Under the pieces are notes generated by a model. It searched no databases. It saw only the letters and a list, made by a program, of their open reading frames with translations, and was not told where the DNA came from. From Ectocarpus siliculosus (taxonomy: Eukaryota; Sar; Phaeophyceae; Ectocarpales; Ectocarpaceae), in assembly GCA_000310025.1 (NCBI GenBank), contig FN649740.1, positions 3,506,544 through 3,537,589 of the forward strand: DNA of 31,046 bases. The letters run 5' to 3'. Each line of letters starts with the position of its first letter. Within the stretch, counting starts at the first letter, position 1. Both the position numbers and the translations under genes were made by a program. This document shows, piece after piece, positions 6,757 through 28,600 of the stretch.

Positions 6757-9700
6757 TTATCGCTCTTCTAACGCCGGGTCGAACGCCGGGCATCGGTCCT
6801 GGAAGCTGCACCAGTCGCACAACCTGCTGGTGCGAGGGGGGAAGCTATCTCGCCGCACCGACCCGGCGATCTCGTCCCAGGTGGATCTGAGCTCGCCCTC
6901 CACCGAGGGCAGGGCGGCAGGCTCGATCTTGCGGGTGACGCTGTGAGCACACCAGACAGACGCGGGAACGGCTTCTTAAGCGAGTGCAGCAGCAACAAGG
7001 GGCGGAGGGGGCTTGAACGCACGTACGATGCGGCCGTCGGACCGTTGCCGTGGAAACTGCCCTGTCTGTCGAATCATCTTCATCCCCTGCCCTATTACAG
7101 GCAAAAAAACAGCTTAACAAAACGCTTTCCGCCTGCCCGGCACGTGCAAGTCCTCCTTTCAGAGAACCCCCGGGGGAATGGTTGCATATAACGGTCTGAA
7201 CAACAAATAGAGCCACACCCGAACGACCTCTCCACAACGTCGGGCCCAAACACACAAGAAACACACACTAACAATCCGTTCGAAATAAAAGGAGAGCTCC
7301 TGACCTTGCGGGTCCCTTGAGGTACACCAGCCGCATTTCCCCAGGTGCTTCTCCCAAAACGCGCTCCACCAGCAGGGCGTATATCTAGAAAAGTGTGTAG
7401 GACGGTCGGCGGGAGGGGGGTGGGGAGGGGTGACGCATGGGCAGGGCGTATCGAGGGGGGGGGGGGGGGGCAGGGCGGAACCGTTTCGTGATTGATGTTG
7501 TTCTCCTCATAAGTATGAACAGCTTGAGGGACAGCAGTGTTATCTGACGCTAAAAACTCCACCTAACATAAAATAAAAATGAACTCCCAATAAAGAGAAC
7601 CCGAGTAAGGTTTTATGTAGGAAAAATAGACTATAGACTAGAGTTTGTGTCGTTTTCACGCTGTTTTGCACAACCCAGATGCTGATGCTGAATCGAAGTT
7701 CACTAACGCCCAAAAAGCAGCGGCAGCGAGGTTACATGGTCACCAACCACGGTAGAGCGATGATGGACCACGTGCACCATACGGGAGTTACAAAAGCCAT
7801 TAGGTATGACAGGCTTCGCACTATCTAATCACCCTCTCCCGCTGCCCGCTCTATAAACACATGCACGCGGAAAATCGTCTTCCCACCTGCAGCTGGAAAA
7901 ACTTTTCGTCCATTATCCTCTGGTTGGTCGCCTCGGAGTACTTGAGGTTGGGAATCTTCCCCGTCTTGTAGTCCACCACTCGCAGCGTTCCGTCGGGGCA
8001 CCTATTCAAAATATTTCGGAGGCGTATGCATGTCGACGGTACACCTTAGGCTTGACTCGAAAGTTGATGTTTTGGCTATCCTCCGCCCTTTGCGTGAGTG
8101 GCTCCCTATTTAGGTTTGCGCGAGAGAGCACAAGATATGGGAGGCGTATGTATGTGTGAAGACGATACGAGTGATTTCCTGCGGATTGTCATCAAGGGGT
8201 GCTGCAAGATGACAACAAAACGCAGGCAGCAGGACCACAGCCCTAGCTGGCTGTCGGCTGCTGCCAGCTGTGATGAATTTTCCCGAGCTCAACTGGTCAC
8301 AACGCTGATATATTTCATTACTCGAAGAGCCCAGCGAACTTCAACGAACCACAAATCTGTATACAGTCTTGCATCTGAGGCTGGGCTCGAAAAAAAAAAA
8401 TGGTTGTCCTCCGTTCTTTACATTAGTATCTTGCTAGATTTGCGGGAGAGGGTACATGAGAAGGTTTGGCACTTGTGTCTCTATACTGTAAAGGGTTTGT
8501 AGAGAGGTGTATATGTGACATTCACATTCAGTGCGTTTCGTTTGTTTTCTTCGAATTTTTGGTCTCCGTTCCAAGGACCTTGATTACACCATCTGGAACC
8601 GACGTCATTTCATTGGTCAGCAGGTAATGTAGCGCGGTCGATGCTAACAAAAAATACACACACACCAACACACACACCTATCCAATCGATCCACGATCCC
8701 GGTTACGTTCATGGACCATGCCGTATTGCTTGCCGCAACACCATCACCGGCCTGTCCTCCCTCCCCCTCCTCCTCCACGATATGTCGACCGGCCGCCGTC
8801 TCACCTCCTCCGAACTCGTGCCTGGCGTGTTCGTTTTTCGGCCAGGCAGTGCGGGGCGGCGTTGGTGAAACACGGCATTTGTGGCGGCGAGCTTGGCAAT
8901 TTGTGCCACAGAACAATTGGGCTGCGGCGCGATCGTTGCCACGGAATAATATACCGTGCAGAAGAACAAACGTAGGCCCACGAAGAGCTCGGAAATCGTT
9001 CTTAAAAAAGGTACCTTCTACATCGTACCCCGAAACCTTACGGCTGGCTGGATCACTTCGTTATGACGAGAAAACCAAAAAGGATTGCGGGTTCCAACCA
9101 CTTCTTTGAGCTTGAAACGACTCATGCTGGGGGGTTGAAAATAGCGCGACGTCACTTGTGCTGCCTTAACGGGACTACGCGCAAGGTGAGCGACACCTCA
9201 AACTTTACATTAACCGCGCAACCGCAAAACACAACAAAGGAGGAGGGCGGTTAAGAGCAAAAATTAGGGCATCCTCCCCTCCGCTCCCCCTCCCCGAATG
9301 AACCACACAACAGCACAACGCATAAAAGGGGGGCTATGAGCCAAAACTAGGACACACCCCCCTCCGCTCCCCCTCCCCACATGAACCGCGCGACGGCACA
9401 ACTCACGAAAAAGGACGAGGGATAAGAGCCAAAACTAGGACATCCCCGCCTCCCCACGCGAACCGCCCAACAGCAAAACGAAAAAATGATGAGGGATAAC
9501 AGCCAAACTTAGGGCACCCCCCACGGCGCTTCGCGCTTGGTGATGTGAGAGCCTGGTCCGGTGAGAACCCGGCGTGCTCCGTCCCGGCTTTGTAGGGATG
9601 CGAGGTCAATGGTCAAACGACTACGGCATGCACGACTATGAGTACACCCCCCCCCCCGCCCGCTCCCCCCCGGCTCACGTCATCCTCAGCTCCACGTGCT

Positions 9701-10586
9701 CCGGGTCCCCTTCCCCGTCGTCCCTGGCATCGCTCTCCACCCGCACGAAGTTCGCCACAAGGTCGAGGCACTCGACCACCCACTTCTTCTCCTCCTCCTG
9801 GGTCTCGAAAAGCTTGCCGTAGCCGCGGGAGGGATCCTTTTTTTTTTTCGTTTGTTTCGTCGAAATCGGCGAAAGGAAGGGGGGACAGGGGGCTAATCAT
9901 TAAACGAAAAACGACTTCAGGCTTGCTTCAGGCGAAATATTTCAGAAATTTCGATTTTAGTTGTATTGTTCATTTCTTTTCGATCGGTTTGTGGTGCGCG
10001 CGTGGACACTGGCTGCTGACATCTATTCGAATCTGAGACCGGGAATTGGAAGGATCAGGGTGGCATTCGTCTGCACCACGCGCGATGGAGGGCAAGAAGC
10101 TGCTTCTGGCGTGGATTTTGACTCCCATTTATGTCTCCTCTCTTGCACGCATGACGGGGGGGTGGGGTCAACCGCAGCAGGACGACCGGTGCCAAGATTA
10201 CAGCACCCCGAGGTTCGTGTGTACAGCCTCGTGTTGGTGCGTTTAGCACAAACAAGGGAAACATTACCCCCACGCGCAACAAATCCGTGGATGAGTCCGG
10301 CGGATCGATCTTACCCTCGAAGTCACCAAGCTTCCTTACCATTCAGTTACCCTGTGCCACAACCCCTAAAAAAAACACCTGGCTTAACTATGCATACGGT
10401 AGTGCAGCGTCCTAGGAGCAGTCGATGTTCCACTTTCCTAACACCTTACTGCACCTCCTTGTCCTGTGCGATTAACCCGGTCATGACCTTTCGGAAAAGC
10501 TCGTGCAGGTGACCTATGTCTCTAGACCCCTCCTCTAGCGTGAAAAATAGCGATAGCACCTGAGCAAAAGAAACAAGGACGAGGAG

Positions 10587-15105: not shown

Positions 15106-16626
15106 ATGGCAGAGCCCCAGCCACCGGCGGCGGCAGGGGAGGCGGCGGGGGACGGGGCCGCGGGCTCGGCGGCGGCGGCGGAGGCGGCGGGAGCGGCGGC
15201 GGAGGGAGCGGGAGGCGGGGGCGAGGAGGATGGCTTCATCGACGCCGGAGACGTGACCTACACGCCCTACCGCCCGGCCAAAGTCAGGGTGGGTGCACCG
15301 TCTCTCCGCTGCGCGGCGTGTGCGTATACAATATCTACGTGTGCCGCCTTGGCACGCACGGCCGCAGTGGCAGCGTTACTTTTAAGAAGGAGTGTAATGG
15401 TTTTAACCTTTTGGTGAGGGCTGCTGCTTGTAGGGTGTGCTGAACCCTGGGGTGCCCGTGTGCCCCTTCGCGCGTGTCGCCCGCCCCCGCTGGCGATAGA
15501 TGGTGCATTTCTGATGTTGTTCTAGCGTGGGAAGGGCGGAGCCGGAGGGGGGGGGGGACCTACGTCATCATTACGCAGCAGTTGCGAATACACGCGCACC
15601 TGTATGTCTCTCTCAACACTATTAGATGCACTGTACAGACGCAGCTCATTGTTTTCGCCTACTACTAATAATAGTGCATCCCCGCACCGGACCTCCACCC
15701 TCCAACCCCCTGCATATGTACCGTAATTGTGCGTGTTATCGCCGCACCCCCGTGTTAGCGTTTTTTCTATAGCGTATTTCTCCACAACCAGGGAGGTATC
15801 ACCACCTCCGAAAAGGGTGGTTTTGGAAACATTTCGTCAAGGGCTTTCCGGAGAGGTATCAGTTGGTATTCGCACCCTCCTAGCTGTGGAGAAATACGCT
15901 ATAGAAAAACGCTTTATCACGGGGGTGCGGCGATAACACGCACAATTATGGTATCTGGTTTTGGCACAGCAAACACAATGATGATGGCCAGCTGCTTCTG
16001 TTCCCCCTTTGTGAAACGCAGCCTGGGCCGGCAAAAGCCCGGCATTGTGTAGGGATACGAGGTCAAAGGTCTGACGACTACAGCATGTCTTTACATGAGT
16101 ACCACCCTTGGTGACGTGATGTCATAGCCTGGTCCGGTGAGGACCCGGCGCGCTCCGTCCCGGAGTTGTTGGGATGCATGGTCAATGGTCTATCGACTAG
16201 GCCTGTGTTTACATGAGCACCCCCCCCCCCCCTTCCAGATAGGGAAACCCCCCCCGGACCCCGTGGTCGAGAACACGTCGCTGGCCGCGGTGCCCCCCCC
16301 TGACGTCACGTACGAGTCGCACCTCCCGCCGTCCTCCCTGGAGCAGCTGAGCGAAGTCCAGATGGAGAGCGTCATGTACGCCGGGCAGCAGTTCAGCAAG
16401 CCTCACCTCAAGAACGGGGAGCGTGCGGGTGAGCATGGATTGCGTTGTTGTTGTTGTTATTAGTGGAACGTTTGGTCGTTACCGCCCGTCTTATCGACGC
16501 GCGCGGCTGGCTGCACTGCAAGGCTGAAGTTGTTTGGTTGGTCTGTCGGGTAAGGCGCCCAAGGACAACGACTCAGGCGGCCGCAGCAGCAGCAACAACG
16601 AAAACAGCAACAACGACGACGACGAT

Positions 16627-16660
<34 letters not shown>

Positions 16661-19600
16661 GCAACACGGAACGGCACTATTGACCACGCGCGCCACACGA
16701 CAGGTTTCATGATCGGTGACGGGGCCGGCGTCGGCAAGGGGAGGCAGCTCGCGGGAATCATCATGGACGCGTGGATGCAGGGGCACAAGCGCCACATCTG
16801 GTTCAGCATATCGCCAGACCTGCTCCACGACACCAAAAGAGACTTGAAGTGAGCGATACGTTCAGTACACCTATTTCATTCTTTTCTGCTCCATGACACT
16901 AGGAGAGGCTTGAAGTGAGCGAAATGTTCCTCCTATTTACACCTTTTCCGTTATTTTCTCGTGTGCTTTCTACTCATTATTTTTGCCTGATGTACTGTGC
17001 CTTGACCTTTTTCGTTCCCTCCTTTTGTTTGTGTCCTCCATTGTCTATTGCCTGATGCGCTCCTTTACGCGGAGAGAGACTCGAAGTGAGCCAAACGTTC
17101 CTCCCACGCCTTTTCATTCTTTTTTTTTAGCTTTCTGCTCGTTTTTGTTGTCTGGTGTGCTCCCCGACACGAAGAGAGACTTGTTGCACTTCTTCTGGAC
17201 CGATGAACCTGAACCAACAACCCCCGCAACAACGCATCACCTATGCTCACGATGCGCCAAGTGTAATGAGGAACCACGCCACCCGATGACTCCCCCCTCC
17301 GTCCTGATCACAACCAGTTGCTGCTGGCGATGCTAATTGTGCCGCTGATTGTGCCGCTGCCTGCGCTGCTGGTCGCGCCGCTAATATTGCTGATGATTGC
17401 GCCGCCGCCCTTGCGCCGCTGATTGCGCTGGTGATCGTGCCGCTGCCCGCGCTGCTGATTTGTGCTGCCGCGGGCCGCAACAGGGACATCAAGCCCGGCA
17501 AGAAGAACCGGCCGAAGGTTTACAACCTCTCGGACCTGGCCTACGACGACAATCTGTCCGTGGGAGACGGGGTGATATTTTGCACCTACAAGAGCCTCAC
17601 CTTGGTCAGCGAGAGCACGTCGGTGTGTGTGTGTGTGTGTGTGTTGTTGTTTTTATCTTTCCGCTAGACACCGTTCCGGTCTCTGCTCAGCACCCCTCGT
17701 GATATCCGTTGTTGTTGTAACCACGTTACAGACCGTGCCGGTCTCAGCTCAGTGCCCCTTGCAATATCTGTACCGCCGGTCCAACTGACGCGCGGACGTC
17801 TTGCGTGGTGCGTGTATGTACAGTAGTACCATGAATTCGTGTGTTGCGTGTTTCTGCAGACCCCGCTAGAGCCGACGGACCAATGAAAATGACGTCGTCA
17901 GTCTTCGCAACTGGGCGAAAAACGAAACGCGAACGCACACAGTTTTAGTCTACGGGGCTCCTCGCACGGGGCGGGAGGGGGGGGGGTTGCGGGGAGGACA
18001 TTGGGCGACCAACTTCTTCAACAATGAGAAGAAAGCACGTACAGCAGTGTGCATCTCGCCGTCCCAACGAAACGACGCGTGCGCTCTCATTCTTTTGCTG
18101 CAGGGCCATGGGACTGTGGCTCGACTCGGCCAGCTCACGCGGTGGCTCGGGGGCCGCGATGCCGAGGGGTGCATCGTCTTCGACGAGGCACATAAGGCGA
18201 GGCAAACTGCTACAGTACTACAGCAGTAGCACACATGCAGTAAGCAGTATCGCTGGTGACGCAAGATAGCACACCCCCGTTACGTAAGATACAGTATTTA
18301 TATTTAGCACACATCCCTTGGCCCGTGTTTCAAAACTATATGGCTCCAAGAAGGAAGTGCTGTAGTATACTGACCGAAGATACCACCCACCCCCCTGGGA
18401 CGAACCGGTGTGATCACAGTTCGATTTATCCGAGATGACAGGAAGAGCGGGGGTGCCGGAATGGTGGAAGAAGGCGTTTGGAACCACCATGTCGAGACCT
18501 TTCTAGAGACGCATGGCTTGATATTGTCCATCCTCTTCGTCGTGTGGAGTACTCGAGCTGTCGGAAATCAGTCCGGGGGGGGGTGACATCTTGTGTCATG
18601 TCACGTACGGTTCTCGCACCGACTGCTGTGGGATATTGCCTTCCGAAGCGTTTCGGAACCCAATGCACAGCAGCACAGCGGTTGACCTTCTGCAGCGGTT
18701 TTTTGTCATGGACTTACTTTGCCCAAGGCGCAGCACGAAACCGCTTTAGCCTCGTGCCTGGCTCTTACTCACCGCTATACTTGGTCTCTCTCTCTCGCAT
18801 GCCTCGAAATGAGGATCTTGCTTTCGTGAAGTTCTTCGTGTTTGACTGCCTTCGTGGATATACCCGTTGACAGTGCCAAGCCCGCCGGTAAGTTGGCCTT
18901 GCACGTGTGATGCATACACCGCCGTGCACCCACAGCCATGCTTCCAGGGAGCGATTACAAAGAGGGTTTGTGGCACGCAGTCTTGTGCGTGCGTCTCTCC
19001 CTGATGACGCCGTTGTAAAGATAGGTGTGGCACATACATACAGTACTGCTGTTGTGCCACATAAAAAAGTTGTCTCGTCCCGGACAGAACTAAAGAAAAC
19101 TCCCGACCTCCTCCTCCTCTCCCTCTCTCACGCGAGAACGGCAGAATCTCAAATTGAGAAGGGCATGTTTGCCACCCGCAGGCTAGGAACAAAGTAGGCA
19201 CCACACTTGCTTGTGGTACACGTCAATTACAACAGATCTGCGCGCGTTTCGTGTGGTTGTGTGTGTGTGTGTGAAGCCGAGTGTTAGAGTTTTGCGAGGG
19301 TGCACGCCGCACCATCAGGAGGAAGAAATCTGTTTTAGCAAACGGATGGATGCATGCACGTACGGTCGAACCTACGTCGGCAAGAATCCCCGCCCCCGCC
19401 CCCCACCCCTCACACCTGACACAATGTGCGGATCCCCCGCCCGCCCCGAGGAGGAAGGACCGATCGGCCATCGGTGATCGGTCGGTACTGTGGGAACAAT
19501 GCTCCGTCCTCTCGAGGACGCGTGGTCGATGGTCTGACCGCTAAGGCATGCGAAACATGAGTACCCCCCCCCCCCCCCCCCCCCCAAANNNNNNNNNNNN

Positions 19601-22600
19601 NNNNNNNNNNNNNNNNNNNNNNNNNNNNNNNNNNNNNNNNNNNNNNNNNNNNNNNNNNNNNNNNNNNNNNNNNNNNNNNNNNNNNNNNNNNNNNNNNNNN
19701 NNNNNNNNNNNNNNNNNNNNNNNNNNNNNNNNNNNNNNNNNNNNNNNNNNNNNNNNNNNNNNNNNNNNNNNNNNNNNNNNNNNNNNNNNNNNNNNNNNNN
19801 NNNNNNNNNNNNNNNNNNNNNNNNNNNNNNNNNNNNNNNNNNNNNNNNNNNNNNNNNNNNNNNNNNNNNNNNNNNNNNNNNNNNNNNNNNNNNNNNNNNN
19901 NNNNNNNNNNNNNNNNNNNNNNNNNNNNNNNNNNNNNNNNNNNNNNNNNNNNNNNNNNNNNNNNNNNNNNNNNNNNNNNNNNNNNNNNNNNNNNNNNNNN
20001 NNNNNNNNNNNNNNNNNNNNNNNNNNNNNNNNNNNNNNNNNNNNNNNNNNNNNNNNNNNNNNNNNNNNNNNNNNNNNNNNNNNNNNNNNNNNNNNNNNAG
20101 ATGCCGAACACCCTTAGCAGGATGCAGCGCACCCTTCATGCGACTCGCCGAATACCTCACGGCGCTTCGCGCTTGGTGATGTGAGAGCCTGGTCCGGTGA
20201 GAACCCGGCGTGCTCCGTCCCGGCTTTGTAGGGATGCGAGGTCAATGGTCTAACGACTACGGCATGCACGACTATGAGTACCCCCCCCCCCCCCCCCGTA
20301 CCACAGGCGAAGAACCTGTACTTGGCCAGTAAGCCCACGTTAACCGGGAAGAAGGTGAAGGAGATACAGGACCGTTGCCCCAACGCGAGGGTGGTGTACT
20401 GCTCGGCGACGCCCTGCTCTGAGCCGATGAACATGGGCTACATGACCAGGTTTTTTGGTTGGCTGTTGTTGTTGCTGTTGTTGCTGTTGTTGCTGTGTCG
20501 GGTGTTTGGTGGGGTTATTGTCGTTCTGCCTTTTTTTTTTTTTTCTCTTGTCTGGTGTCTTTCCCACACCCCTCTCCGCGTCACTGCCTTTTTTTCTTCT
20601 TCCGCACGCACAAACCCTTGCTTTGTTGATTGACTTGGAAGTGCACATGTTGTGCTCTAGGGGTCGACCTCCTCTCTCCTTTTGTCCTCCTTCCGTTTGT
20701 TGGTCTCTTTTTCCCTGCTAGGCTGGGGCTGTGGGGGGACGGGACGCGATTCGAAGACTTCCCCGACTTCCTGAAGGACATCGACGAAAGGTCAGAACAA
20801 GAGGAAAAAAAACGGAATTTGAGACAATCGATTCGAAACACCGCCGTGGTAATTTGTTTTTTCCTGAGCGAGATGTGATTTCAGGGAAATCGATCTGCTG
20901 GACGGGCCCCAGTTCGACGTCGCTGCCTGCTGCGCCGCTGAAAGCACATACGGTAGCAGCAAACACGGCAGTACAGGTGTCACAGTTTTTTTTTTTTTTT
21001 TTGTCCTTCTTCTGCACGGGACGCCCGCTGTACGGTTGGCGTTGGAGAAAGGACGATCCGCTAGAAGATGAACCGCTGTAGATAGGGTAGAGGAGAAGAA
21101 ACGAGGCGTAGCCTCGCTAGATCGAACGATCCCGTACCACTCGCGGCGGTGGTTGGTGTGTCATCTTTTATCTTTCGCAGGGAGCAACTTATCTATGCCT
21201 ACTACAGCAGCAACTTTTCTTCCTTGTTGCGGAATACCTACGTAGCGAGGGCGCATGGATAGTACTTCTCATTTACCGTAGCATTCTAAAATGGCCTTGG
21301 AAGAAAGCAAACCTCAATCAACGATTTTTGATAAATCCGTGTTCAGATACTTGAAGAGAGCTTATTTTAAAATGCAGCGCATTACCTTTCCCCGTGCGGG
21401 GTATGATGTGCGCGCATGTCCAAACGACGAACCAATGCTAGCATGCTACATTGCACTCGAACGCTACTGTATCATCCTCTTCTCGCTGCCGGTACCCCCC
21501 CCCCCCCTTTCAACAACAGGGGTGTTGGTGCGATGGAGCTTGTGGCGATGCAGCTCAAGGCGGAAGGCATGCTCCTCAGCCGCTCCCTGAGCTTCCAGGG
21601 CTGCGAGTTTAGCCTCGTCCCTCTCGTCAATAGCAAGTTCCAGGTTCGTTTGTTATTGTTATTGTTGTTGTTGATGATGTTGTTGTTGTTGTTGTTGTTG
21701 TTGATACTCTTCGCCACCGAAAGCAAGGCGTTCACTTTTTTTCTTTTGCTCTTTTTTTTTTCGCGTTGAAGATGAAGGCCGAGTCGTGTGCGAGGTCTGC
21801 CGGTTTAGCCCGCTTAAGATTCGACAGGCTACATGGCGTCCCCAAAACCGAAAATTAATAATAATAATAAAATTATTAATAGTAACAATAACAATACTCG
21901 CCAACGATATACCAATACACACAGAACAAGCACGGAGAGCGGTTTGGGTTATGTTGTAGAATGGCTGATGGATTTATCCATCAATTCCTGGCACGTTAGA
22001 CATTTTCATCCTGATCGCACGTAATAATGCTACAAAAACGAAGGAGGGCAAATGCCATGACGTCATTCATCTTGCACTTGCCATCCCCAGTACATACCAA
22101 GGATTAAAAAATAATTATAAAAAAAAAGGGAGCCGGTGCGTGTCCAGCAATTGTGACTAACTGCTGTGAGAGTACCGACGGCCAGAACAAAGGGACGACA
22201 AAAAAAAAGTTCGTGGACTACACCAGCAAAGCTACAAGCCGACCCAATACCAAAAATTCACAAGCGGAAAAGAGCGAGTAAACACCGCCTCCCCCTCGTT
22301 GTATGTACACGTATGTATTCAGTACCCAGCGAAGTCCCGTGGTGCTGGTGTACGCACCCTACAATATAATTTCCTGTCCAATTTTTCAGCGAAGGTTAAG
22401 GTTGGTTTGGTGGCACCGCGTCCGAGTTTTGCATTCCCTGCCCCCCCCCCCCCCGGTCGTGTGTCAATACTGCTGAAGATCGATTCCTACAACGCGGCGG
22501 TGAAGACGTGGCAGCTTCTGTGGCAGGTTCTCAACGACGCCGTGGGGGAGGACACCCTGTATACCCTCGTCGAACCCGCCAGCGAGGAAGAGAAAGCCGA

Positions 22601-22646: not shown

Positions 22647-25600
22647 GCTGGTGCTGTACGTAGGTCTGTCTTGCATTCATGTACATACATACATGCTGCA
22701 GGACCACCCTGCTGCGCCGCACGTTGACACCTCTGCGAGACCGCGGGTGGTCCGATGCCGTTTCGTGCTTGGAGCGGTGTGTATCGAGCACCGGGCACAC
22801 GCCAACCGAAACCAACCGTAGTCAACGCTGAAGATGCTACAGAGGTATACTGCTGAAGCGCCACGCACATAGCCGCAGTGTTTTCTGGGTCCTGAGGCTG
22901 GCCCTCCTGCCGAGTCTCCTTCGTATAACCCGTCCGTCGCGCATATTTCCCGACGAAGCACAGCAGCAGTGTCTACGTATGCGGCGTTTGTTTTTCTTAG
23001 ATGACACTAAAGAGGAGTGTATTCCCAACGAAGTACAGCAGTGTCTACGCATGCGGAGTTTTTTTTTTTTATGGCGCTAGGAGTTTATAACGAGTTTTGT
23101 GCTCGATTTGGTTCTCTTCTCTCTCGGATAACGATGACTGCTTTTCGAAATTCTTGAGAGAAAGAAAGCACACACAATGAACCATTAGAGTCTCTCCCAC
23201 TATGAGACCATGTCCTTCCATTGGTCAACCGGTTTGTGCAACTGAGGGTATCCTGTGACGAATTACACGGGTTTTTTGTCCTTAACAGGAAAATATTTTA
23301 GGAGAGAGAGCTATTAGCTCTACATCCCTTCTCTTGCTCCCTCGGTGCTACTGCTGTAGGGCTATGTACATGCCGGCTATTGTACTGATAATAGCAGGAA
23401 GCTGTGCCGACGACACTAGAGGGTCAGCCATGCTTCGTACCCTCTTCCCATCTCCCCGGCTGGTGCAGACGTACACGTTTACACCTTTACGCGTCCGTGG
23501 TTTGGAGCGCCCCACCTCTCTGCCTCAACATTCCGAATTGGTGCACATCAAGTACAACAGGAAACAAAGGCGACCTGCTCAAACAGGAAAAGCCAAGACT
23601 ATATGGCGAAAATATGTAAGGCCTACCATGAGCAGGGGAGCTGTGGTATAATGGTTAGAATTGATCCCTGTCACGGATCAGATCCGGGTTCAATTCCCGG
23701 CAGCTTCGTTCTTTGTTTTCGTTCATCGCGAATTTATCCTGGAGTCTTCCTCGTGCACTTGTAGACATGTTTTTTTTTCTTTGACAACGAAACAATCTCA
23801 TCTCTCTATAATTCGGACAAGAAAGTCCAGGATAAATATGCTATACTTGTTTTGTCAATGAGTAATTGTAAGTGTGCACTGCCGCCATCAGCGGTCTGTG
23901 GTGTTGAGACTGGGTACTATGTTATCCCAGGAACAGCAGATGAAAAAGGACCATGCATTATAATTCTATATATCCGTCACGCAAGCACCTCAGGCAAGCT
24001 GGTATTGAACACGCAAGCCCCTCAGGCAAGTGCCGGGAGCACACCGCCGTGTGCTCACCCGGGGGGGGGCCGCACTTGGACCCCAACCGCATACATACCC
24101 ATCACACCCATACTTCCCATACGCGTGTCCCCCACAGAGGATGCACAGATCGGACTCATATCCAAGTACCACAAACAAACAGCAATGGATTAATATCGTC
24201 ATATGCTGGTTGGTGCAGACGTAAAATCACGAGTTTCACGTGTACCCGTCCCCATTATCGTAGGAGGGCCCCACCCCTTCCCCTGTCTCAACTCTCAACA
24301 TCCCGAAATGTCATACACCAGGTATTTAGCGAAATGTCAGTAGTTTTGTAGGAAACAAATACATTTTTTATAACGACCTGCTCCAACGAGAGAGCCGACG
24401 ACAACCTGCTCAAACAGGAAAAAGCGTGTGGAGTATAAGGCGAAAGTGTTCTGGTCTACCATCGAGCAGGGGAGCTGTGGTATAATGGTTAGAATTGATC
24501 CCTGTCACGGATCAGATCCGGGTTCAATTCCCGGCAGCTTCGTCCTTTTATTTCTATCCGTCCCTAATCTTGTCCTGGGTCTGTTTTTCCTACAGCACGG
24601 GGTAGATATGCTTTTTTCCCCCCTCAAACAATAACATGGGCCCCCTCTCTAAAGATAAGTAGTCCCAGGATAATTTCGCAATGAATTCATAGTCCACCTG
24701 TCTGTGTGTGTGTGTTTCTTATTTCTGAATATGGCCAAAACGAATCCATCTCTATCTAAGAAAAGAGTCTGAGATAGAATAGCTATGAGACGGTTGTCTC
24801 CAGGTTCGCGTGTGAGCAAGTTCCCTTTGGGATGTGTGGTGTGGATACACACCGGTTCAACCTCTGGTGGAGGGCTGACGAGTACGGATAGTTGTGTTGT
24901 GAGTCAAGGGGGGGAGCAACCTTGTGTTGAAGCAAGGTTCAGCATCCATCCGACACTGACTCTATCTGTGGCAACACCCCGAAGGTAGATCTCCGACAGG
25001 TCATCTGACGTCACAATCCACTACAGTCTGAGGTGGCATTCACAGCACCCCCCTATCTTCAATCACGGGGCCTGAATCCGGATTGAAAGACACAAGAATG
25101 ACATAAATACTCCAGAGTGTATGAAATTGTGAAGTACTGATGAAAAGCACGAGTTAAATGACTTGGGCCGTAACGTACGGCGACTGCCATCATTCAACGA
25201 ATGCTCTGTGTTTTGCAGTCATAAAATTTGGAACGTGTCACCAAAATATCTCATCCGAGCATCGATCGTACATAGTGCAGTCACAACCACAGTTTGCACG
25301 AGAGCAATTCATTCAGGAATTTCGGCAACTATTCCCGTACGACGAACGAATAACTACACAGATGACGAAAAGTGTACGGAACATGTCAGTCCGCCTCGGC
25401 GCTGTAGGTAACATGTGATCTACCGTACGAACGAACGGCGGGTGTACAGAAAAAACATCACTTCGGTGCGCGTCTTGCCCCGACAGTGTAAAAAACTGTA
25501 CAAGTAGTACCTTGAGACAACGCCGTGAACTATTTTGTAGTTGCACACGTAACGAACACCCGGCAACGAAAAATAATTTGGCATTGCACCTGTGAAAAAC

Positions 25601-28600
25601 GATTGCTTGCAAGGCTCAAAGTTCACAAGTGTCGAATAGCAAATGACGTGGGTCGACCCGCTGGGAAAACGTTGCTCAAACGATATGCAGCTGCAACAAC
25701 GAACGAACATATGTGCACAGCTCATGGAGAGCTAACGATACGACCTTCTCATGCGATTACGCAAATGAGAGGCGCTGCATAGACGAACGACGACGAATGG
25801 TGATTACGAATACAGCAAACGATATGCTGTAGCATGGATTTGACGCAGTAGTGGGACGAAAGTCTGGTCCTCTTGTGCTTCCTCTTGCACGGCCCAGACA
25901 CCCATCTACTCTTTCGCAGTGTACGACACGCGAGAAACGATGTGCGGGTAACGAAAGGTGTACGGAACATGTCACTGCAGTCAGCTCCAGCGCTGTAGGC
26001 AACATGTGATCTACCGCACGGACGAACGGCACGGGATAAAAATCCACCGCACGAAACGACTAAACAAAATCGGGCATGAATAAAACCGCGTGAACAATGC
26101 GAAAGTGCATGGATCCAGAAGTCGATTATCAATTGCGATTCCCCCAAACTGCAAGTGAGACGATATCACCCCCCAAGTTAATGTCGGAGTGGACGAGAAA
26201 AATAGCAATGGATTCATATAATAGCGTCTTAGAAAGCTATCTGTATTTCCACGGTTTTTGACTGATCTCCGGCAGTGTATCTACCCTCCAATGTTGTAGG
26301 TATTATTGTAGTCGGAACAAGACAGGTTAAGGGTACAGTTTGGTGGCCTTGATGTGTATCGACTGTTGGGAAGAGTTGGATGTTCGGGCATTTGTGTGGC
26401 GAACAGATCACGCAAGTGTGCTGTGTTGGGGAGGTTTGTGTGGAAATTTTATTGCTGCAAAGAGTGTTTCTATGTTTACAAAACACCGAAAGTATTGTAA
26501 GACATCAACCCGGTTTTTTCGTTTTTTCCGTCTCACAAAAACAGAGGAAACGAAAAAAGCTCCTGTGTGGCCCTCCTCTTGTGTGACCCGGCTGACACAT
26601 ACGTGAGGTATATACCCCGACCGGCGCCAGAATAGATGGGACGAACACACACACTCAAAGACGTCGTTCCATGGGTCTGTTGGTTTGTGCAACTGGTGGC
26701 ATTGTATTGTGCAAGTGCATGTTTTTCTCCTCCTCAGCCAAGAGTTGTGTGGGTCCACATCCTTCCTTATCTCTTTTAGTATGCTTATGTGTAAGGTACC
26801 GACTTTTTTCAGACTTAAGAGAAAAGCTGTGCCTACGACAGTTCGCGTTAGCCATCATCGTCGGCGATATTGCAGATGTGTCGAAGCGGCCGTGATTTGG
26901 GGTACGCCTATATATGGCGACAATATTCCTCATACCACATGGAGCTGTGGTATAATGGTTAGAATTGATCCCTGTCACGGATCAGATCCGGGTTCAATTC
27001 CCGGCAGCTTCGCGCCTTTTTTCCTCTCGTGTTTTTTTTTCTGTCGCGATTTTTCGTTTCGTGTTGTGGTTCCTGGAGCGGGGTTACAACTGCAGGTCTG
27101 CAGGTACATGTTGTACCTCGGCGATTCCGTCCGTTCGCTATGACCAGGTCTAGTCGATTTGTGGTGGCGAAAACATTCCACACCCCTCACGGAGCTGTGG
27201 TATAATGGTTAGAATTGATCCCTGTCACGGATCAGATCCGGGGTTCAATTCCCGGCAGCTTCGTATCCTTTTTCCTCGTGTTTTTTTTTCTGTTGTGATT
27301 TTTCGTTTCGTGTTGTGGTTCCGGGAGCGGGGTTACAGCTGCAGGTCTGCAGGTACATGTTGTACCTCGGCGATTCCGTCCGATCGCTGTGGCCAGGTCT
27401 AGTCGATTTGTGGTGGCGAAAACATTCCACACCCCTCACGGAGCTGTGGTATAATGGTTAGAATTGATCCCTGTCACGGATCAGATCCGGGTTCAATTCC
27501 CGGCAGCTTCGTATCCTTTTTCCTCGTGTTTTTTTTTCTGTTGTGATTTTTCGTTTCGTGTTGTGGTTCCTGGAGCGGGGTTAACAGCTGCAGTTACATG
27601 TTGCACGTCGGCGATTCCGTCTGTTCGCTATGACCAGGTCTACTCCATGTGTGGACAAATAAAAACACGGACGGGAAATAAGTTTATTTTATTTTCTTAC
27701 CTGATATTTTTGTGCTTTTTTAATTTTTGGTGTTGGAGGCCAGCAGTATCTACTTTTTTTTTTTTCTAAATGTGACCCAACGAATCCATCTCCTCTATCT
27801 AGGACAAGAGTCCAAGATAGATTAGCACTGAATTCATAGCGTCAGAGAAAGCTACCTGTATTTCTATTGTTTTCGCATATCTATTTTGTTTTTCTGCCAG
27901 AGGTGACCTACATACCGAACACGAACAGCTGGCACATGTCATTATTTTTAGACCTTCTGGGGGTGGGTGATGACCAAAAAATAAACGGCCGTTAAAGTAG
28001 CCAGCCAAAATCATTGCGTATGCATCTCGAACTGCGAGCGAGAGCAGTTATAAATAGTTAGAGATGAGGGAAAAGAGCCAAAGAAATAACAAGCCTCCGA
28101 TAGCTGCTGTTAACCCTTTCTCTTTATTTAGCGCATTGTTGGGTCTGCCAGGTCCGTGTGAAAAGCCAATCACATTCTACCGTAGGTGACATGACGTAAG
28201 ATATCACACCCCTGGATCGGTTTTTAAAACTCTAATTCTCCACGACGAAGAGGCTCCCAACGCCGCCATTTTCATCACCGCCACTCTTTCTGTGTGGAGC
28301 AATCGAACTTTGAACATCGGTCCAGGGGGTGTGATATCTTACGTCGTGTCACCTACGGTGGTTGCGCTCTTTGTGGGTTTGACGTCTTACGCGCCAATTG
28401 TAACGGTCCAACCAACGGAAAACGTGATACCGTGAGAGTGAGAGGGACAAAGGCGAAAAACACACACCTTCGGTTCACAGTTCATCTTCTCCGCCCTTGA
28501 CACTGGGGTCGCGGGTGGTCGTTTTTTGTGTGCACACGTCGACGTATTCCACACAAGATAACACCCCCGGTGATTACGGGTTCGGCGTTATTTTATCAGC

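Follow-up and report, generated by a model that had tools for sequence, protein, structure and literature searches.

The dispersed repeat that stands beside exons in this stretch of the Ectocarpus siliculosus genome is probably a retroposon that targets runs of C and lands in tracts that already exist, leaving the tract duplicated on both sides of the insert; it has a 3' end in common with a LINE. Judged by their flanks, most of the exon-adjacent copies seem to have inserted at a splice signal that was already there and not to have supplied one. We observed C tracts to the left and right of the inserts, a single orientation of the inserts, 5' truncation, target-site duplications, a 3' end shared with a LINE, nesting of copies at the tails of others, and C runs before splice acceptors.

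The window (the whole 31,046-nt stretch that was analysed, part of contig 15) contains a strawberry-notch-like gene with Pfam AAA_34 matches in the frame over exons 1 to 4 (E 3.3e-51) and in the frame over exons 5 to 8 (E 2.9e-55). Exons 4 and 5 did not join in one frame, so the end of exon 4 is provisional. The copies, exons and C runs that bear on the argument are:

16038..16107, plus strand: older related copy in intron 1, ending GAGTACCACCC
16116..16232, plus strand: second related copy, at the C-rich tail of the 16038..16107 copy, ending in C13 (16220-16232)
16239..16428, plus strand: exon 2, placed by frame and AAA_34 match (gene-model start 16243)
18104..18196, plus strand: exon 5, placed by frame, followed at 18196/18197 by the apparent GC donor of intron 5 (CATAAG/GCGAGG)
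20099..20297, plus strand: visible part of a retroposon copy in intron 5, ending in C17 (20281-20297)
20298..20449, plus strand: GTACCACAG and exon 6 (20307-20449), placed by gene model, frame and Pfam match
21495..21507, plus strand: C13 tract, 12 nt upstream of exon 8 (21520)
22441..22454, plus strand: C14 tract, 24 nt upstream of exon 9 (model start 22479)

The earlier note had placed the C17 of a dispersed repeat nine bases ahead of exon 6, and this was borne out: exon 20307-20449 was predicted by a gene model blind to pyrimidine tracts, with an acceptor posterior of 0.94. Its second case, a repeat ending in C13 and then TTCCAG at exon 2, also held, with two related copies stacked upstream of the exon; we prefer the start at 16239 over the model's, four bases later, because it keeps the frame. 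The exon-6 copy tells neither supply nor landing, since its 5' part and left flank disappear in an assembly gap (19589-20098, N to 20098). At the C runs upstream of exons 8 and 9, to which the earlier note does not refer, no repeat was found.

Elsewhere in the window, the following copies and one further exon were placed:

9519..9662, plus strand: 5'-truncated copy with C-rich sequence on its left (CACCCCCC) and C11 on its right, 97% identical to the copy at 20155
9678..9836, minus strand: predicted exon of a PD-(D/E)XK gene, its donor facing the copy's C end (gene model, donor posterior 0.35)
19458..19585, plus strand: copy of a sibling family, ending in C22
29953..30066, plus strand: sibling copy whose left junction carries C10 (29953-29962)

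A third repeat had been reported near the nuclease donor at 9678. The C11 of this copy does stop at 9657, 20 nt from the exon, and a following shorter C run comes nearer, but the donor is a prediction of low posterior. The PDDEXK_1 match of this gene (E 9.2e-07) falls in two other exons, and exon 9678-9836 searched alone gave no domain match. Other elements in the window include two at 15719-15953 and 28179-28359 that resemble non-autonomous DNA transposons, their terminal repeats being inverted and about 50 nt long, and five tRNA-Asp(gtc) predictions in 23637-27512, the last three about 249 nt apart within a tandem repeat.

The repeat is a 5'-truncating, non-autonomous non-LTR retroposon of about 500 nt. 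A word search of the whole 189-Mb genome with one 27-mer of the repeat found 924 exact copies (472 + 452), and a reversed-word control found none. One full-length example measures 508 nt, and full-length copies frequently carry a further 5' monomer, about 70 nt long; in L047 and other full-length copies we observed one or more such monomers per copy, with C-rich joints between them. Copies that are not full-length are truncated at the 5' end, the shortest to about 46 nt. This combination of a constant 3' end and variable 5' truncation is as for a LINE-mobilised non-LTR retroposon. The 3' end reads CACGACTATGAGTAC with small variations and is followed by C-rich sequence. A pattern search for copies followed by CAGG returned none, a result that is uninformative on splicing because most copies carry TATGAGTAC rather than CATGAGTAC. 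A SINE in the strict sense would have a head derived from a tRNA, 5S or 7SL gene with a Pol III promoter. For the head of the repeat a tRNA origin is not favoured, there being no Rfam tRNA match (one of the two Rfam checks covered three loci). Truncation has an apparent hotspot at positions 361-368 of the 412-nt query, where 12 of the 40 truncated copies begin (L012, L019, L021, L024, L025, L036, L044, L053 and other loci), which makes them about 46 nt long; a reverse-transcriptase pause or a tiny separate family might produce this, and the sampling 27-mer favours copies that reach that point.

Copies were sampled in contig order, which is independent of genes, together with the best matches. 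Flank counts used the 74 copies whose flanks could be read, including two from the window, with L069-L088 omitted for having no left flank. For exon edges, 104 copies with a 3' end were reduced to 98 by removing six that lay in the window or else within or next to LINE frames, and to 90 by removing eight from L002-L008, which were best matches; L001 lies in the window and was omitted. Assembly gaps start soon after the C runs of copies at window position 19589 and in L002, L003, L008, L018, L026 and L055, and some copies may therefore escape any count made close to C tracts.

The left flanks indicate that the machinery of the repeat selects existing C tracts as its insertion target. Within the 30 nt strictly outside the element, a C run of at least 5 occurs in 58 of 74 copies (60 of 74 if the first six element bases are included), against 4.6% of random 30-mers, and a G run of that length in none of the 74. 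The C run is present in 29 of 31 full-length copies, where part of it may be the element's own given the C runs between their 5' monomers. It is also present in 29 of 43 truncated copies, whose left edge is no terminus of the element, and absent from the same 30-nt flank in the other 14. The median run length is 8 both for the first C run on the right and for the longest on the left. Of the 74 copies, 14 carry target-site duplications that reach 9 nt or more and include three or more non-C bases, compared with a mean of 2.1 and a maximum of 8 in 300 trials with re-paired flanks; the remaining 60 lack a clear duplication by this definition. Ten of the 14 duplications start with at least CCC, as in CCCCCCCCATGGTCGACAT. 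Copies also nest, with 54 head-to-tail neighbours genome-wide joined by C-rich sequence and none in the reversed-word control, a count that covers the head-to-tail orientation.

A candidate partner is present at one sampled locus, L024, which contains a 799-residue LINE frame matching RVT_1 (E 1e-32) and similar to L1 ORF2 (E 7.5e-26) and to R2 proteins. The 3' end of this single LINE copy is 83% identical to that of the repeat. Because the LINE copy is truncated, no endonuclease is seen in L024. The locus carries CCCCATCTCACA three times in a row, following in turn a repeat copy, the truncated LINE and another copy of 46 nt, an arrangement that would fit three target-primed reverse transcription events into one C tract. 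Target-primed reverse transcription is most likely how the retroposon moves. We infer that the machinery would nick the G strand of a pre-existing C run, that the freed G-rich 3' end would prime on the C-rich end of the element RNA, and that a LINE of the L024 type may act as helper of the non-autonomous repeat. The outcome would be inserts that are truncated at the 5' end, never vary in the side on which the C end lies, and have flanking duplications that start with the C run.

We determined how often such inserts adjoin exons by using gene structures from a small self-trained model (about 0.3 Mb), which are predictions made without transcripts, and by counting as an exon edge a sense acceptor or an antisense donor relative to the copy's C end. 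Of the 90 unbiased copies, 11 had a predicted edge no more than 60 nt from the C end, compared with 4.6% for random noncoding points (p 0.003); without L012, a locus with two insertions, the count was 9 of 88 (p 0.018). Weighting by posterior gave 9.8 expected edges in the 90 copies versus 4.0 at random noncoding points (p 0.002). The earlier note's count of three of six copies touching exon edges is thus seen in the window but is a local cluster, and the insertion bias it suggested holds for exon edges, at about 2.5-fold, but not firmly for acceptors. Predicted acceptors alone show a weak excess, within 60 nt of 6 of 90 copies against 2.2% at random (p 0.015) and of 4 of 88 (p 0.12) without L012. 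Chance alone, with three contacts falling in one window and no bias behind them, could draw on this last value, but it is very unlikely in view of the excess of edges around copies outside the window, with or without L012. Acceptor density is also raised farther from the copies, to 0.77 per kb at 101-200 nt and 0.53 at 401-700 nt (window copies included), so a general placement near genes may contribute to the excess.

Homopolymer runs are themselves a feature of exon borders in this genome. A C run of at least 7 lies within 60 nt upstream of 12 of 90 confident acceptors and, among acceptors with no element within 100 nt, of 7 of 83, whereas random noncoding windows have such a run in 2.0% of cases (p 0.001). 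Of 52 donors, 5 have a G run of at least 7. Exon borders in this genome are thus a natural home of C and G runs, with C runs ahead of acceptors and G runs following donors in the introns, and an element with C runs as its target is bound to encounter such borders, so that some insertions adjoin exons. Element-free C tracts of at least 8 have an exon edge within 60 nt in 8 of 128 cases, intermediate between random points and copies. The comparison of copies with random points that had been proposed, run here on the sample, does yield an excess at exon edges, but the choice of C tracts can account for it, as copies and element-free tracts differ at a Fisher p of only 0.10.

It has also to be asked whether the element, or the helper, has a preference for exon borders over and above the effect of C tracts, for example through open chromatin at genes. 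If the rate in element-free tracts is taken as fixed, copies exceed it both at 60 nt (p 0.025) and at 40 nt, where 6 of 90 copies compare with 2 of 128 tracts (p 0.003), whereas the Fisher tests return 0.10 at 60 nt, 0.055 at 40 nt and 0.21 at 100 nt, and the posterior-weighted comparison with C tracts gives p 0.12. We consider such an additional preference rather unlikely. The flanks of acceptor-proximal copies bear on whether acceptors without a pyrimidine tract acquired one from a long poly-C tail of the repeat's own. Six copies lie within 60 nt of a confident predicted acceptor (two in L012, and one each in L038, L047, L058 and L079), and the five with a readable left flank, L079 being outside the count, all have C-rich sequence on the far side too; for one of the L012 copies, that sequence is the tail of an older copy. 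Donation of the tail can appeal to copies such as L028 and L058, in which the C run is longer on the right than on the left, and to the exon-6 copy, whose left flank lies unread in the gap. It is nevertheless quite unlikely given these five flanks, the far-side tract in most of the 74 copies and the equal medians on the two sides. The suggestion that the poly-C of the repeat was exapted as a splice signal is therefore mostly turned round, because C tracts flank the inserts on both sides and stand in their target-site duplications; what stands of it is that the repeat may still lengthen the tract.

An introner-like process, in which the repeat creates introns, had been raised as well and is extremely improbable. 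An AGGCGA direct repeat is visible by eye at both ends of intron 5, but that intron is about 2.1 kb long and contains other sequence besides the repeat. Of the 69 unbiased copies for which a left flank is available, two, L015 and L021, have a predicted donor within 60 nt on that side, and no acceptor lies to the right of either. In both loci the copy stands about 52 nt after the predicted donor, on the side away from the C end, with no acceptor within 120 nt on the right. In no sampled copy do the ends of the element form both splice sites of a new intron.

Landing in pre-existing C tracts, the reading that we favour, may carry a consequence for the host. Insertions beside acceptors could be tolerated because the duplicated tract leaves a C tract next to the acceptor. 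We tentatively propose, as a possibility to which we give somewhat less than even weight, that a LINE/SINE pair has evolved a choice of C homopolymers as target, by which the pyrimidine tracts of introns become its safe harbour: the duplicated tract would keep the acceptor working, one acceptor could take repeated copies, and introns would lengthen at their 3' ends with splicing unbroken. Stacked copies at a single acceptor occur at exon 2 of the strawberry-notch-like gene and at one acceptor in L012. If the landing account is right, short repeats at exon edges are explained without exaptation, and it predicts which introns gain sequence; these loci would let one test in nature whether it is the duplication of the pyrimidine tract that makes exon-side insertions harmless, and the plain C homopolymer would join the simple repeats known as LINE targets.

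In Alu-type exonization the poly-pyrimidine derives from the inverted tail, so that the tract comes with the element. That process, like the one described here, brings a retroposon end next to a splice acceptor, but the tract here is mainly the target. Introners, as described in part of one source (PMC9860276), are likewise mobile elements that meet splice sites and duplications, whereas no copy here forms an intron alone. A transposable-element survey of Ectocarpus (PMC12477816) describes a non-autonomous family, abundant and about 600 bp long, whose 3' end is of RTE-X type and whose 5' part is of unknown origin. Compared by description only, RTEX-N1_Ec32 of that survey resembles our repeat in being short, non-autonomous, abundant and common in introns, with a LINE-shared 3' end and an unknown 5' origin; the passages of the survey that describe it make no mention of a C-tract target, unlike what we find for the repeat here. 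Green-algal RTEX families, in the portions of the source that list them, end in simple repeats such as (CA)n and (CAA)n (PMC3747384), which are of other kinds than the C run here. As far as their partial descriptions go, RTE and RTEX elements share with our repeat a simple-repeat 3' end, a base matching the start of the duplication, and abundant 3' fragments (PMC3747384, PMC13295347, PMC2887409), and RTE insertion is termed not sequence-specific in part of one of these sources (PMC2887409). A C-homopolymer target for non-LTR elements was not named in the titles and abstracts from a partial literature search, which does not show its absence from print.

By its sequence features, the repeat belongs with the LINE/SINE pairs that target simple repeats, a plain C run being a different target. 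Kojima and Fujiwara (2004) is cited for LINEs of this kind. Simple-repeat targeting implies that the simple repeat was present before insertion, as the left-junction C runs and the duplications indicate for the copies here. DONG and TRAS LINEs target simple repeats (PMC2887409, in the relevant sections), and their simple repeat, like the C tract here, predates the insertion. Unlike the targets of DONG and TRAS as those sections describe them (PMC2887409), the target of the Ectocarpus repeat is a plain C run, scattered over introns and intergenic DNA.
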